This document shows, in pieces, positions 6,288 through 9,842 of a DNA stretch of 64,000 nucleotides. The position numbers and the translations under genes were made by a program. The notes below the pieces were generated by a model, which did no database searches, was not told where the DNA came from, and was given only the letters and a program-made list of their open reading frames with translations. Origin of the DNA: Allomuricauda sp. CAU 1633 (GTDB lineage: Bacteria; Bacteroidota; Bacteroidia; Flavobacteriales; Flavobacteriaceae); contig NZ_JAFLNE010000002.1 in NCBI RefSeq assembly GCF_017313225.1, positions 248,001-312,000 on the forward strand. The letters run 5' to 3'. The number at the start of each line of letters is the position of its first letter. The first letter of the stretch is position 1.

Positions 6288-6427
6288 ATGAGGAAGAAAA
6301 TTTATTTAGGCAAAGAAACAAAAATTTTTCGGGTATTATAATAAGAGGTAAATGTAGGAACTGGGAACTAAAATGAAAACCCAGACGGCAATAGCATCTG
6401 GGTTATCAAATCAAAATGAAAACCAAA

Positions 6428-7099
6428 TCAACATGAATTGTTTTTTTCCAAAATGAGGATGATGGCATTTTCTGAAAGTGCCTCAAGTTCTATTTTATGT
6501 ATGTTCCACAAAGCCAGGCAATCCCTAGATTCCAATAAGCGGTTCTGTAATTCAAAAGCTCCATTGATTACAAATGCCATGATTGTATTCTGTTCATTGG
6601 AAGCGAAAAAATCCGATTCCATTCTTCCATCGAACACTCCAAAATGCAGTTTAAAGTTTTGCGTTTCCAAAATGGTCTTTAAAACGTTATTGGAATAATC
6701 CGAAAAGGATAGCTGCGCTTCAATGCTATGCTGTTTCACCCAAATCTGAAGATAATTGACCAGATTGTCTTCACTTGGATTTTTAATCGAGAGGTGTTCC
6801 CCTGTTTTAATGGATAGCACCTGTAATTCTTCGGGAGCAATTTTTCTGGAATGTTCATTTTCAAGGGATTCATATACAACCGTGCCGACCAAGGGCAGTA
6901 AAATAACAGTTACGTCTTCATCTGAAGTGAACAATCTACTTTTTTGGGGGGCAAGTGTTTCATCAGAAAACCTGAGTGTGCTCTTATCCACACCATTTTG
7001 GTAGATGGGGGTACTCAAACATCTATACTCACTTGATTCATAACTGAATCTCTTCTCTGCCAACAGTATCTTGGCCGGCTGTTGTACCATTGTAGCCAT
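6428..7099 (-). CDS. Pirin/YhaK-like cupin protein
   Basis: 223-residue protein with the layout of a pirin-like two-cupin fold. Seen: VILLPLVGTVVYESL at 65-79, then LSIKTGEHLSIKNPS, then NYLQIWVK at 115-122, which is close to the YhaK/pirin signature LQIWI. The usual metal-binding histidines of the first cupin are not obvious, so it may be a sensor or binding protein rather than a quercetin-dioxygenase-like enzyme. It starts 12 bases after the intradiol dioxygenase gene and almost certainly shares its transcript, under the same LytTR-type control. Related pirin-like proteins elsewhere act on or sense aromatic or oxidised molecules; a similar role here is inference. Confidence 0.65.
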   Translation of the reverse strand: MATMVQQPAKILLAEKRFSYESSEYRCLSTPIYQNGVDKSTLRFSDETLAPQKSRLFTSDEDVTVILLPLVGTVVYESLENEHSRKIAPEELQVLSIKTGEHLSIKNPSEDNLVNYLQIWVKQHSIEAQLSFSDYSNNVLKTILETQNFKLHFGVFDGRMESDFFASNEQNTIMAFVINGAFELQNRLLESRDCLALWNIHKIELEALSENAIILILEKNNSC

Positions 7100-7111: not shown

Positions 7112-7894
7112 TTAAGCGTTTACATAGATATCATGGGTCAAAGTGAACCCTTCATCTATACTGCCACTTACATTGGCAAGTTCTTCTTCCACTCCGTCAC
7201 CGAACACATTGTCCTGAGCATGATAGGTATACCCGCTCATTCCTTTGGTATAACCATATTCACTGGCGTCATTTACCCGTACCACGGCACTGTTCTCTCC
7301 TTCGGGGAAGGCAATTTGAGTTACCAAAAGGGAATCTCCGTCGGCATTGTAAATATGTACATGAATGTGTGTTGAACGTCCATTGTACCAGCCCGGGAAA
7401 ATGGTGGTGAATTCTACCAGGCCATCTGTGTTGCTAATTTGTCTACCTCTTAAAAAATGATTGTTGGTATAATTGGTGGACTGCATGCCACTTCCGCCAT
7501 ATTCGGAATAATTCCCATCTTTATCACAATGCCATACATCCACTAGGGCACCTTCAAGTACATTGCAGCTGTCATTTACATTTCTAATGGTGATGTTGAG
7601 ATCCAAATCGATTCCGGTACGATCTCCAACAATGTCCATGCGTTCATAATCCTCCGGATCATGGGTAGGGAAAGGCCCTTCTGTTTCACTGGGGGTCACC
7701 TCGCAATCGTCCACAGTATCAACACTACTTGACAAGTCTGAACTGCTATCAGAAGAAGTGTCAGCATCCGAGTTAGTGTCCTCTTCCTCCAAAAGATAGG
7801 TGTCGCTGTCTTTAGAACATGAGCATAACAATGTTAAACCAGTGACAGAAAGTCCCGCAAGTCCTACACCTTTTAAAAATTCCTTTCGTTTCAT
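7112..7894 (-). CDS. Intradiol ring-cleavage dioxygenase, lipoprotein
   Basis: Non-haem Fe(III) dioxygenase of the catechol/protocatechuate intradiol family, predicted to be anchored in the envelope. The N-terminus is a lipoprotein signal with Cys in LCSCS (C26 best fits), then a Ser/Asp-rich linker (29-61). The catalytic domain shows TEGPFP at 71-76, VDVWHCDKDGNYS with ligand Tyr at 129, PGWYNGR with ligand Tyr at 170, and HIH with ligands H176 and H178: all four iron ligands are present. Single-chain extracellular members are known in other bacteria, but the substrate is not known here. No other ring-cleavage pathway gene is adjacent. The gene lies next to a LytS/LytTR pair and carries a LytTR-type operator upstream. 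Confidence 0.88.
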   Translation of the reverse strand: MKRKEFLKGVGLAGLSVTGLTLLCSCSKDSDTYLLEEEDTNSDADTSSDSSSDLSSSVDTVDDCEVTPSETEGPFPTHDPEDYERMDIVGDRTGIDLDLNITIRNVNDSCNVLEGALVDVWHCDKDGNYSEYGGSGMQSTNYTNNHFLRGRQISNTDGLVEFTTIFPGWYNGRSTHIHVHIYNADGDSLLVTQIAFPEGENSAVVRVNDASEYGYTKGMSGYTYHAQDNVFGDGVEEELANVSGSIDEGFTLTHDIYVNA

Positions 7895-7914: not shown

Positions 7915-7922
7915 TAAAACTA
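7915..7922 (-). promoter_or_regulatory. -7-like element of the dioxygenase operon
   Basis: Minus-strand TAGTTTTA preceded by CA, a one-base variant of TAnnTTTG. The same CATAGTTTTA string occurs at the same place upstream of the histidine kinase gene. It lies 20 nt before the start codon and 27 bp from the operator. Confidence 0.5.
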
Positions 7923-7949
7923 TGGGGGTTAGGGTGTTAAGAATAATAT

Positions 7950-7980
7950 TTGAGGTAAACCCCAGTGATCTTGAGGTAAA
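7950..7980. promoter_or_regulatory. LytTR-type direct-repeat operator, dioxygenase operon
   Basis: Two exact copies of TTGAGGTAAA (7950-7959 and 7971-7980), start-to-start distance 21 bp. LytTR-domain regulators such as AgrA bind paired direct repeats with about this period. It lies between the end of the response-regulator gene and the dioxygenase start. A matching site is found at 9812-9842. Confidence 0.7.
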
Positions 7981-7993
7981 GGAAGGGAAATCG

Positions 7994-8677
7994 TTAAAGG
8001 TTTTTTAAAATTTCAGCTTTGTAGGATTTGCCCAAGGGTACTGTAAAATCACCAATCTTTGCCGTGTCCTTGTATATACTCCCAATCTTCTTCAATGGAA
8101 CAATGTAGGAGCGATGTGCCCTCACAAATTGGGTTGAAGGTAGTTTTTCCAGCATGCCTTTCATGGTGGCCCGGGCCACAATTTTTTGCCCATTTTCCAA
8201 ATGAATCTTAATATAATCGTCCATAGCCTCGATCAATAGGACATCTTCAAACGCTATATGGTATAATTTTAAATCTGCCCGTATGGAAAAGTGGGTTTTG
8301 TTGCTGCTTTCTCCCATTTCCAAATCCATTTGGATCTTGGCTTTTTCAACTGCTTTCTGAAACCTTTCAAAAGAAAACGGCTTTAATAGATAGTCAATGG
8401 CACTCACATTAAACCCCTCAACGGCATAATGATCATAAGCCGTGGTAAAGATGACCTTAGTTTTTTGTTTTAAGGATTTGTAGAGATCAATTCCATTGAG
8501 TTCCGGCATCCGGATATCAAGAAAGAGAAGGTCAACATCGAATTTGTTCAGATATCGGATAGCTTTACCCTGTTCGGTGAAGACATGAACTAAGTCAATG
8601 TAGTCAATTTGGCCACAGTAGGCCTGAATTACATCCAATGCCAACTCTTCATCGTCCAGTGCAACAGCTCTGATCAT
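7994..8677 (-). CDS. LytTR-family response regulator
   Basis: 227-residue two-domain regulator. The receiver domain (about 1-120) has acidic residues D8 and D9, phospho-acceptor D54 in LFLD, TTAY near 78 and K99 in LLKP. The LytTR DNA-binding domain (about 125-227) includes RAHRSYIVPLKKI. It is phosphorylated by a LytS-type kinase and binds paired direct repeats. Its start overlaps the kinase stop by four bases (ATGA), so the pair is translationally coupled. Two 21-bp-period direct repeats, one before the kinase gene and one before the dioxygenase gene, are its likely targets. Confidence 0.95.
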   Translation of the reverse strand: MIRAVALDDEELALDVIQAYCGQIDYIDLVHVFTEQGKAIRYLNKFDVDLLFLDIRMPELNGIDLYKSLKQKTKVIFTTAYDHYAVEGFNVSAIDYLLKPFSFERFQKAVEKAKIQMDLEMGESSNKTHFSIRADLKLYHIAFEDVLLIEAMDDYIKIHLENGQKIVARATMKGMLEKLPSTQFVRAHRSYIVPLKKIGSIYKDTAKIGDFTVPLGKSYKAEILKNL

Positions 8678-9753
8678 GTAAGTTCTATATAAAGTTTTAC
8701 GGCGTAGAAATCCTGTCTATGGTCAATGTCCAATCTATGCTTGTTGGGATAGAAATAATCCAGTCGTTTTTTGGTATTTCTATTTCCTTCTGTAGTTTGC
8801 TCCAAAAGACCGTTCTGCTTTACCGTTATTCTGTTTTCCACATGAAGCTCCACACCTTTGCTATCAATAGTAATAAAAATACTGATTTTGGAAGGTACAT
8901 CAGGATTTATCCCATATTTAAAGGCATTTTCAACATAGTTCACCAAAATTATTGGGGCGATTCGTTTGTTACTGGGATTTCCTTTGACTTCAAAAACAAA
9001 GTCGGTATGCTTTCCCATCCTCATTTTTTGAAGATCGATATAGTCCGAGATATATTGGATTTCATATTCCAGCGGAACTTTTTCGGAATCACTTTCCGTG
9101 ACCACATAGCGCATCATTTCAGAAAGTTTTAAAACAGCTGAAGGGGCTTGATCCGATTTTTTTAGGGTAAGGGCATAAATACTGTTCAAAGTATTGAACA
9201 AAAAATGCGGGTTAATCTGCGCTTTGAGATAATTGACCTCTGCCCTTAGCTTTTCATTGCTCATTTCCTTTAAACGGTTGTCAAGCCTTAGCAGCATGGA
9301 TAAAATGGTAACGGTTACAAACTGAACCAAAAACGAATCCCTAAGTTTAAACACGTTTATGGGAGGCTGCTTTCGGTTAAAATCTTCGGGCATTTTAAAC
9401 TCTGGCCCTGGAGGTGGCATCCCCTCAATATTCTTAGGCGAGGGCACATTGGAATTTGGGGAAAAGTCTTGGGCCTTGAACAAAAGGTCTGGTATATACG
9501 TAATGATTCCAAAACATACCAATAAAATTATAATGTACAGTACATGGCGTTTTTTGGTGTAGAATTCAGGAACCAACCAGTAGTAGTTGATGTAATAAAA
9601 AATGAGCAGTAATAGATAGCCCAAAAAATTTTGCCGGAAACCGCCCGCCCGAACCATTTCGCTGAATGAGTTAAAATCTGGAGAGGTTAGAATGGGAATA
9701 CTGAGCAGGCCCATCCCAATGAGTAGGTTAATCCAAAGATCTCTATTTTTCAA
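8674..9753 (-). CDS. LytS-type sensor histidine kinase
   Basis: 359-residue membrane sensor kinase. About four membrane segments (around 8-24, 41-60, 70-90 and 139-155) are followed by a His_kinase domain: phospho-acceptor H183 in QINPHFLFNTLN and the ATP-lid asparagine box VNYVENAFKYG near 270. Between the third and fourth segments is a Pro-rich loop (about 95-130). It appears to start at TTG (9751-9753): this gives a good N-terminus, and the next in-frame ATG (codon 14) would cut into the first membrane segment. It overlaps the response regulator. No sensory domain is recognisable, so the signal is unknown. A LytTR-type operator lies 59-89 bp upstream, implying autoregulation. Confidence 0.92.
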   Translation of the reverse strand: MKNRDLWINLLIGMGLLSIPILTSPDFNSFSEMVRAGGFRQNFLGYLLLLIFYYINYYWLVPEFYTKKRHVLYIIILLVCFGIITYIPDLLFKAQDFSPNSNVPSPKNIEGMPPPGPEFKMPEDFNRKQPPINVFKLRDSFLVQFVTVTILSMLLRLDNRLKEMSNEKLRAEVNYLKAQINPHFLFNTLNSIYALTLKKSDQAPSAVLKLSEMMRYVVTESDSEKVPLEYEIQYISDYIDLQKMRMGKHTDFVFEVKGNPSNKRIAPIILVNYVENAFKYGINPDVPSKISIFITIDSKGVELHVENRITVKQNGLLEQTTEGNRNTKKRLDYFYPNKHRLDIDHRQDFYAVKLYIELT

Positions 9754-9775
9754 GGCAATAGTTTAGAAGTTTGGC

Positions 9776-9783
9776 TAAAACTA
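9776..9783 (-). promoter_or_regulatory. -7-like element of the lytS/lytTR operon
   Basis: Minus-strand TAGTTTTA within CATAGTTTTA, identical to the element upstream of the dioxygenase gene. It lies 22 nt before the TTG start and 28 bp from the direct-repeat operator. Confidence 0.5.
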
Positions 9784-9811
9784 TGTAAATCAGCACAAAA
9801 GCTTAAAAAAA

Positions 9812-9842
9812 TTGAGGTGAAGACACCTAAAATTGAGGTAAA
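9812..9842. promoter_or_regulatory. LytTR-type direct-repeat operator, kinase operon
   Basis: TTGAGGTGAA (9812-9821) and TTGAGGTAAA (9833-9842), again 21 bp start to start. It contains an internal short dyad AGGTG...CACCT. Same repeat, period and distance to the -7-like element as at 7950-7980. Confidence 0.7.

Follow-up and report, generated by a model that had tools for sequence, protein, structure and literature searches.

Gene content and promoter elements of the locus

The 64,000-nucleotide stretch of DNA that was analysed (the window) encodes a two-component system next to a dioxygenase operon, with the following features.

6378-6404, minus strand: terminator-like hairpin of 10 pairs with a T-rich tail, just past the cupin gene (consensus match only)
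6428-7099, minus strand: pirin/YhhW-like cupin, 223 aa (Pirin_C_2), 12 bp after the dioxygenase gene
7112-7894, minus strand: intradiol ring-cleavage dioxygenase, 260 aa (PF00775, Dioxygenase_C, 41 bits, cut-off 27.3)
7915-7924, minus strand: CATAGTTTTA with the -7-type box TAGTTTTA, dioxygenase promoter, 28 nt past the proximal 9-nt half-site
7950-7980, minus strand: predicted operator pair of the dioxygenase promoter, TTTACCTCA-N12-TTTACCTCA on the coding strand, 21-bp period
7994-8677, minus strand: LytTR response regulator, 227 aa (PF00072, 70.5 bits, and PF04397, 62.2 bits, both above cut-off)
8674-9753, minus strand: histidine kinase, 359 aa (PF06580, 96.4 bits)
9776-9785, minus strand: CATAGTTTTA with the -7-type box, kinase promoter, 29 nt past the proximal 9-nt half-site
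9812-9842, minus strand: predicted operator pair of the kinase promoter, TTTACCTCA-N12-TTCACCTCA on the coding strand, 21-bp period

Exact copies of TTGAGGTRAA were found at 7950-7959, 7971-7980, 9812-9821, and 9833-9842, and these are the only four on either strand of the window. They form two pairs with a common 21-bp period, one before the dioxygenase gene and one before the kinase gene, exactly as the original prediction had placed them. On the coding strand both operators read TTTACCTCA-N12-TTYACCTCA and lie upstream of the -7 box TAGTTTTA. The element CATAGTTTTA, searched for on both strands, occurs only at 7915-7924 and 9776-9785, and its distances to the listed start codons (20 nt for the dioxygenase, 22 nt for the kinase) were the same on re-measurement. 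The gap of 27 or 28 bp first given between repeats and element holds only when counted to the TAG inside CATAGTTTTA; from the 10-mer to the whole element it is 25 or 26 nt. The -7 box of Bacteroidetes promoters has the consensus TAnnTTTG and the -33 element is TTG; we take TAGTTTTA, inside CATAGTTTTA, to be a near match of the former.

The names LytS and LytTR had been proposed for the two-component system. The Response_reg and LytTR assignments and the PF06580 core are correct, but LytS fits the kinase core only, as PF06580 is the sole match at E ≤ 0.001 in the 359-residue kinase and no 5TMR_LYT sensor domain was reported in it. The N-terminal half of the kinase is hydrophobic and includes a proline-rich, variable stretch, often Met/Pro-rich in the genus of the window and with several His in most of the loci shown for g17, another genus of the same family (loci of a second family, f5, are not listed). 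This stretch was considered as a clue to the ligand and set aside, being too poorly conserved for any ligand to be named. The kinase gene apparently lacks an ATG start and begins with TTG at 9753 or with an in-frame ATT two codons upstream (9753-9759); its relatives have ATG, GTG, or TTG at this place, as judged by eye. In the regulator, the sequence FVRAHRS fits FhRhHRS, which an excerpt of PMC4227749 gives as a motif of the LytTR domain; the Tamlana and Mangrovimonas proteins have HKS.

Inspection by eye shows a signal-like N-terminal stretch and a lipobox-like Cys in the dioxygenase, which is probably exported as a lipoprotein. Intradiol dioxygenases bind Fe(III) through two Tyr and two His ligands, and the corresponding Tyr-Tyr-His-His positions are present (in GNYSEY, FPGWY, and HIH) in a region that aligns with PDB entry 6bdj. 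All five matches to the catechol and protocatechuate dioxygenase equivalogs of NCBIfam fall far below cut-off. The Dioxygenase_C and Pirin_C_2 labels are correct, and the 12 bp between the two genes are consistent with one operon. Since no invariant or nearly invariant His was found among 14 members of the cupin family, these proteins are unlikely to have a metal site or to act as quercetinases. The hairpin at 6378-6404 is a possible end of the operon; 11 terminator-like sites were found in the region versus 4.2 expected.

Search of the source genome for further sites

The two pairs are the only ones with zero mismatches in the 4.26-Mb source genome, and the next best places, 11 in number, have three mismatches. 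As these outnumber the matches of a reversed-pattern control in the same 10-mer pair scan (five in all), they were inspected: none of the 11 has a -7 box at 24-31 nt downstream, and nine lie within open frames of at least 100 codons (exceptions L005 and L012). With a looser coding-strand pattern the two perfect pairs came up again, together with 13 places that have one mismatch; its reversed control gave 27. Each of the 13 lies within an open frame of 100 codons or more and lacks a downstream box. A larger regulon in the source genome was rejected on these grounds, the weaker places being without a box and nearly all inside open frames, and neither the strict nor the looser pair scan found a target beyond the kinase and dioxygenase promoters. 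The original prediction would have been refuted by many unrelated genes with the same motif; none was found in the source genome and hardly any in its relatives. The conservation of the sites beside orthologs, described next, did not refute it either.

Conservation of the predicted operators and promoter spacing

Relatives of the regulator were collected with one genome scanned per species, and the best 80 of 306 were kept. Twelve of these best 80 loci (L014-L025), from Allomuricauda/Muricauda/Flagellimonas, Euzebyella, Tamlana, and Mangrovimonas, have the order kinase-regulator-dioxygenase of the window; the cupin was also found in 10 of the 12, the exceptions being L024 (Tamlana) and L025 (Mangrovimonas). 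Together with the window this gave 13 loci and 26 upstream regions, those of the kinase and of the dioxygenase at each locus. A pair scoring at least 14 of 16 is present in 24 of the 26 regions, and the other two (kinase promoters of L020 and L021) score 13; in 200 shuffles of the regions, at most one of the 26 reached 14. The mean best score is 15.04 at a period of 21 and at most 12.12 at 21 other periods. In 25 regions the proximal half-site is followed at 28 nt by a box of the form TANNTT[TA][GA]; in the remaining one, the kinase promoter of the window, the distance is 29 nt. In 24 of the 26, no TTG is present at the -33 place, 18-27 nt ahead of the box. A pair and a box without this TTG are the layout expected of a promoter that depends on an activator. 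An origin of the pairs by chance or low complexity was ruled out by the shuffles and by the reversed-pattern and other-period controls. The scoring of the 13 loci is partly circular, because the matrix was drawn up after the first upstream regions had been seen, and related genomes are not independent trials; the loci of further genera, the strict scan of 395 genomes, the co-occurrence with the regulator, and the looser scan described below are more independent.

Dioxygenase relatives were identified at E ≤ 1e-25 in 29 of 395 genomes of the order and at E < 1e-80 in 20 of 395, a cut-off for the closer dioxygenase that was read off a gap between 7e-86 and 5e-66. The stretches around the dioxygenase gene were taken from 20 genomes, and later from more. 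Among these, L200-L216 comprise nine loci of genus g17 and eight of genus g5, family f5. A pair of at least 14 of 16 precedes the closer dioxygenase in all 17, counting that of L216, which is 254 nt from the start codon used (a 250-nt search range gives 16 of 17), and shuffling these regions gave one at most. All of the loci except L200 have the box, 27-28 nt past the pair. Besides the genome of the window, 19 genomes from two further genera have the closer dioxygenase; 18 of them have the pair before it, and 17 of these 18 pairs are followed by the box at 27-28 nt. Genome G317, of f5, has a pair and box before its dioxygenase and also before a second copy elsewhere (L244, L248). The exception is G388, of g17, where the best place directly before the dioxygenase scores 10 of 16; farther upstream, the cluster contains pairs that score 13 and 15, each with its box at 27 nt. 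More distant dioxygenases gave a different result: the pair is absent from three of three loci with the order kinase-dioxygenase-regulator (L217-L219), and none was found near the distant dioxygenases of L245, L246, L247, and L249. Among 41 sites compared, both half-sites almost always keep their CC, with variation mainly at positions 3 and 7 and, in the distal half, also at positions 8 and 9.

The same sites were sought across whole genomes. A strict scan of the 395 genomes (pair, 28 nt, and TANNTTTR) gave five matches, four of them before the dioxygenase, against one for the control, and recovered only 4 of the 20 genomes with the module; the fifth match, in G366, sits inside a 592-codon frame read from its first residues as a phosphate transporter. 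A looser pattern (TTNACCKC-N13-WTNACCKCA) was run on 19 of the 28 other module-bearing genomes, nine of the genus and ten of g17, the remaining nine being of f5. It gave 20 matches, 18 of them directly before the kinase or the dioxygenase, against two for the reversed-pattern control; two of the 19 genomes had no match. The other two matches lie before a DUF3500/HupE block in the G388 cluster and, off-cluster, within a 777-codon open frame of G061. The strict pair without the box matched in 4 of 39 neighbourhood genomes, twice in the source genome and once each in G008, G013, and G015, with one control match in the source genome.

Some neighbouring features of these loci were also recorded. 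In L242 (7758-7787) and L241 (6128-6157 and 9209-9238), related 21-bp pairs with a box at 27 nt precede DUF3500 and HupE_UreJ_2 genes near the regulator and, in L242, also a TonB receptor; the L242 pairs have ACCAC cores, and a paralogous kinase-regulator pair lies alongside. A small gene encoding 165-168 aa follows the dioxygenase and cupin genes in both other genera (L208, 3883-4380; L210, 8722-9219; L211, 2620-3117; L201, 7493-7999), and a similar small gene in L242 had no Pfam match.

The site before the kinase is less widely distributed. It is present in all 13 loci of the window and L014-L025, so that both sites are kept throughout this set, and the kinases of L202-L205, L209, L241, and L242 are likewise preceded by a pair of 13-14 of 16, with the box 28 nt away. 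No kinase-promoter pair of at least 13 of 16 was found in L201, L207, and L240, or in any of the nine f5 loci (L208, L210-L216, and L244). Autoregulation, as read from these sites, is a trait of the genus of the window and the named relatives, and more weakly of the second genus, but not of the whole module. Of the original prediction that the system controls both itself and the dioxygenase-pirin operon, the part concerning the operon is widely upheld by the conserved dioxygenase site, while the part concerning the kinase does not extend to all module-bearing genomes.

Association of the regulator with the dioxygenase

A regulator cut-off of E ≤ 1e-64 was set before the order-wide test, after paralogs at 4e-63 had been seen in one genome. 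With up to seven listed candidates scored per genome, 20 of the 395 genomes have a regulator at this cut-off, and among the regulator matches listed these are exactly the 20 genomes with a dioxygenase at E < 1e-80. Some 6-8 kb separate the two genes in G388 and in G454, and they are on different contigs in G291, where pairs are present before the cupin and before the dioxygenase and none was found before the kinase. Within the genus, the kinase (E ≤ 1e-60) and the close dioxygenase (E < 1e-100) occur in the same 10 of 71 genomes, a count that is not independent of the 13 loci because some named loci and handle-coded genomes are probably of the same species.

In a tree of 87 regulators, all 28 labelled as adjoining the closer dioxygenase fall within one clade of 37 rows (support 95/82). 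The other nine rows are a duplicate of the window, the linked but unlabelled G317, the regulators of G291, G388, and G454 (whose dioxygenase is located elsewhere in the genome), three paralogs (from G331, G454, and G317), and Avrilella L026, a locus where no dioxygenase was found. The adjacency label still has to change several times within the clade, and long branches are numerous in the tree. A further 77 loci of other regulator relatives, totalling 707 kb, were scanned (L026-L093 and L226-L234; L229 extends to the G454 ortholog as well). A score of 14 of 16 and a -7 box never coincide in them: three places score 14 but have no box, and two score 13 with a box.

Outside the clade are the regulators of L217-L219, three loci that also belong to a set, L190-L195, in which the order is kinase-dioxygenase-LytTR regulator and the dioxygenase is 45-48% identical to that of the window. 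A de novo search of L190-L195 and L217-L219 revealed no shared 21-bp pair. Dioxygenases of this family are accompanied by LytTR pairs in at least two arrangements, and such a pairing with LytTR systems may have arisen repeatedly.

Proposed circuit and alternative explanations

Control of the dioxygenase-cupin promoter by the LytTR system, and of the promoter of the system itself, is very likely: the sites are conserved next to orthologs, track the regulator across genomes, have the published LytTR geometry, and were not found at unrelated genes of the source genome and hardly in its relatives. We consider it highly probable that the locus encodes a dedicated LytTR two-component circuit that activates the dioxygenase-cupin operon and, in this genus, itself. 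The membrane kinase (9753-8674) would sense a signal and phosphorylate the LytTR regulator (8677-7994), a dimer of which would bind two TTHACCKCA half-sites 21 bp, or two helical turns, apart. Positioned about 28 nt upstream of the -7 box, the regulator would recruit RNA polymerase to a promoter without the usual -33 TTG. In the source genome it would have two targets, its own kinase-regulator operon, in feedback, and the dioxygenase-cupin operon. We infer phosphotransfer, dimer binding, activation as opposed to repression, export, and ring cleavage from knowledge of the protein families.

The same regulator could instead use the pairs as repression sites, as does CoxC, a LytTR regulator that represses from sites overlapping the -35 box according to an excerpt of PMC11347149. 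In the promoters described here, 27-29 nt separate the end of the proximal half-site from the -7 box downstream, and most of them lack the -33 TTG, and the same excerpt has most LytTR regulators binding upstream of -35 and activating; we therefore regard repression as unlikely. It is also conceivable that the pairs bind some other regulator and that the adjoining two-component system is a bystander. The source genome encodes 25 LytTR domains, leaving 24 other candidates, and the arrangement in G291, with the regulator on another contig and no pair before the kinase, would suit this reading. Against it stand the co-occurrence of the dioxygenase with this same regulator across the order even where the two are unlinked, the confinement to one clade of all regulators labelled as adjoining the closer dioxygenase, and the lack of any place with both 14 of 16 and a box in the 707 kb around other regulators, which together leave a bystander role quite improbable. 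Finally, the identical 10-mer CATAGTTTTA in both window promoters might reflect promoter duplication or shared ancestry without regulatory meaning. We give this very little credence, as the spacing is nearly fixed even in L200-L216, where the dioxygenases are 53-61% identical to that of the window, the N12 spacers differ, and the CC dinucleotides are retained in nearly all sites.

Under the activating circuit, a signal related to the substrate of the enzyme is a guess, and so is the aromatic or oxidative cue suggested for the kinase in the original prediction. A more speculative version, which we put forward tentatively and hold to be possible though doubtful, is an extracytoplasmic switch in which the kinase detects a catechol-like aromatic at the cell surface, the lipoprotein dioxygenase opens the ring outside the cytoplasm, and the metal-free cupin acts as its partner; the 21-bp and 28-nt geometry could be a general rule for LytTR activation of Bacteroidetes promoters. 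A predicted operator, a promoter geometry, and a regulon of two promoters make the proposed circuit directly testable. If the circuit is correct, other LytTR regulons of the phylum may become easier to read by looking for a 21-bp pair placed about 28 nt ahead of TAnnTTTG, and it would offer a way to approach both the signal and the substrate of a ring-cleaving enzyme whose distribution is patchy.

Comparison with known systems

Among the papers searched, none joined LytTR with an intradiol dioxygenase, and no operator assigned to a LytTR regulator of the Bacteroidetes phylum was seen. Two side observations concern LytTR genes elsewhere. In evolved lines of Flavobacterium johnsoniae, an excerpt of PMC10197871 reports mutations in the LytTR gene FJOH_RS09515 in replicates 2 and 5 and in the kinase gene FJOH_RS09520 in replicates 1, 3, and 4. 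By another LytTR gene of the source genome (L111, 1107-1167, minus strand), TTTCACAAC occurs twice at 21 bp, about 28-29 nt before TAATTTTG, a similar geometry with another half-site. When periods of 12-33 were compared at 67 loci, a period of 21 was found at 19 places and any other at no more than five; six of the 19 have the same motif as the window, two are one place in G454, and some are in coding sequence, and 21 bp as a general LytTR period is only a lead.

The best solved matches of the dioxygenase are structures of the spider mite enzyme Tetur07g02040 (PDB 6bdj and 5vg2, E of 1.6e-21 and 7.7e-21), and 4ilv and 4ilt also match (2.2e-11 and 3.2e-11). We take these single-domain intradiol dioxygenases to be secreted enzymes; unlike them, the enzyme described here is likely a bacterial lipoprotein with predicted two-component control. 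A profile of the 14 cupins matches the YhhW-type pirin/quercetinase structures 6uts and 1tq5 over positions 11-212 (E about 1e-6), from which the family differs in having no conserved metal-ligand His.

Several LytTR systems resemble the one described here. The LytTR-like spacing claimed for the repeats agrees with published geometry, as the window pairs fall within the 9-11-nt repeats and 11-13-nt spacers that an excerpt of PMC4847170 gives for LytTR operators. The YpdB half-site in that excerpt, GGCATTTCAT, is unrelated in sequence to that of the window, and its targets are others. E. coli YpdAB and S. aureus AgrA likewise use pairs of direct repeats, the AgrA sites sitting upstream of the promoters on which AgrA acts. 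The closest parallel is E. coli BtsSR/YehUT, also a kinase with a LytTR regulator. The YehT oligonucleotide in the excerpt of PMC4847170 contains ACCGCTTA and ACCACTCA exactly 21 bp apart, compared with ACC[TG]C at 21 bp here, so that both the period and the ACC.C core resemble those of the YehT/BtsR operator. The half-sites differ (ACC[GA]CT[CT]A for BtsR, TTHACCKCA here), and BtsR, although the best NCBIfam match of the window regulator, scores 108.9 bits against a cut-off of 246, so that the protein is not filed as BtsR. AgrA half-sites are unrelated in sequence to those of the window, and AgrA has other targets. BtsR acts on a pyruvate transporter, whereas the predicted targets here are a dioxygenase and a cupin.
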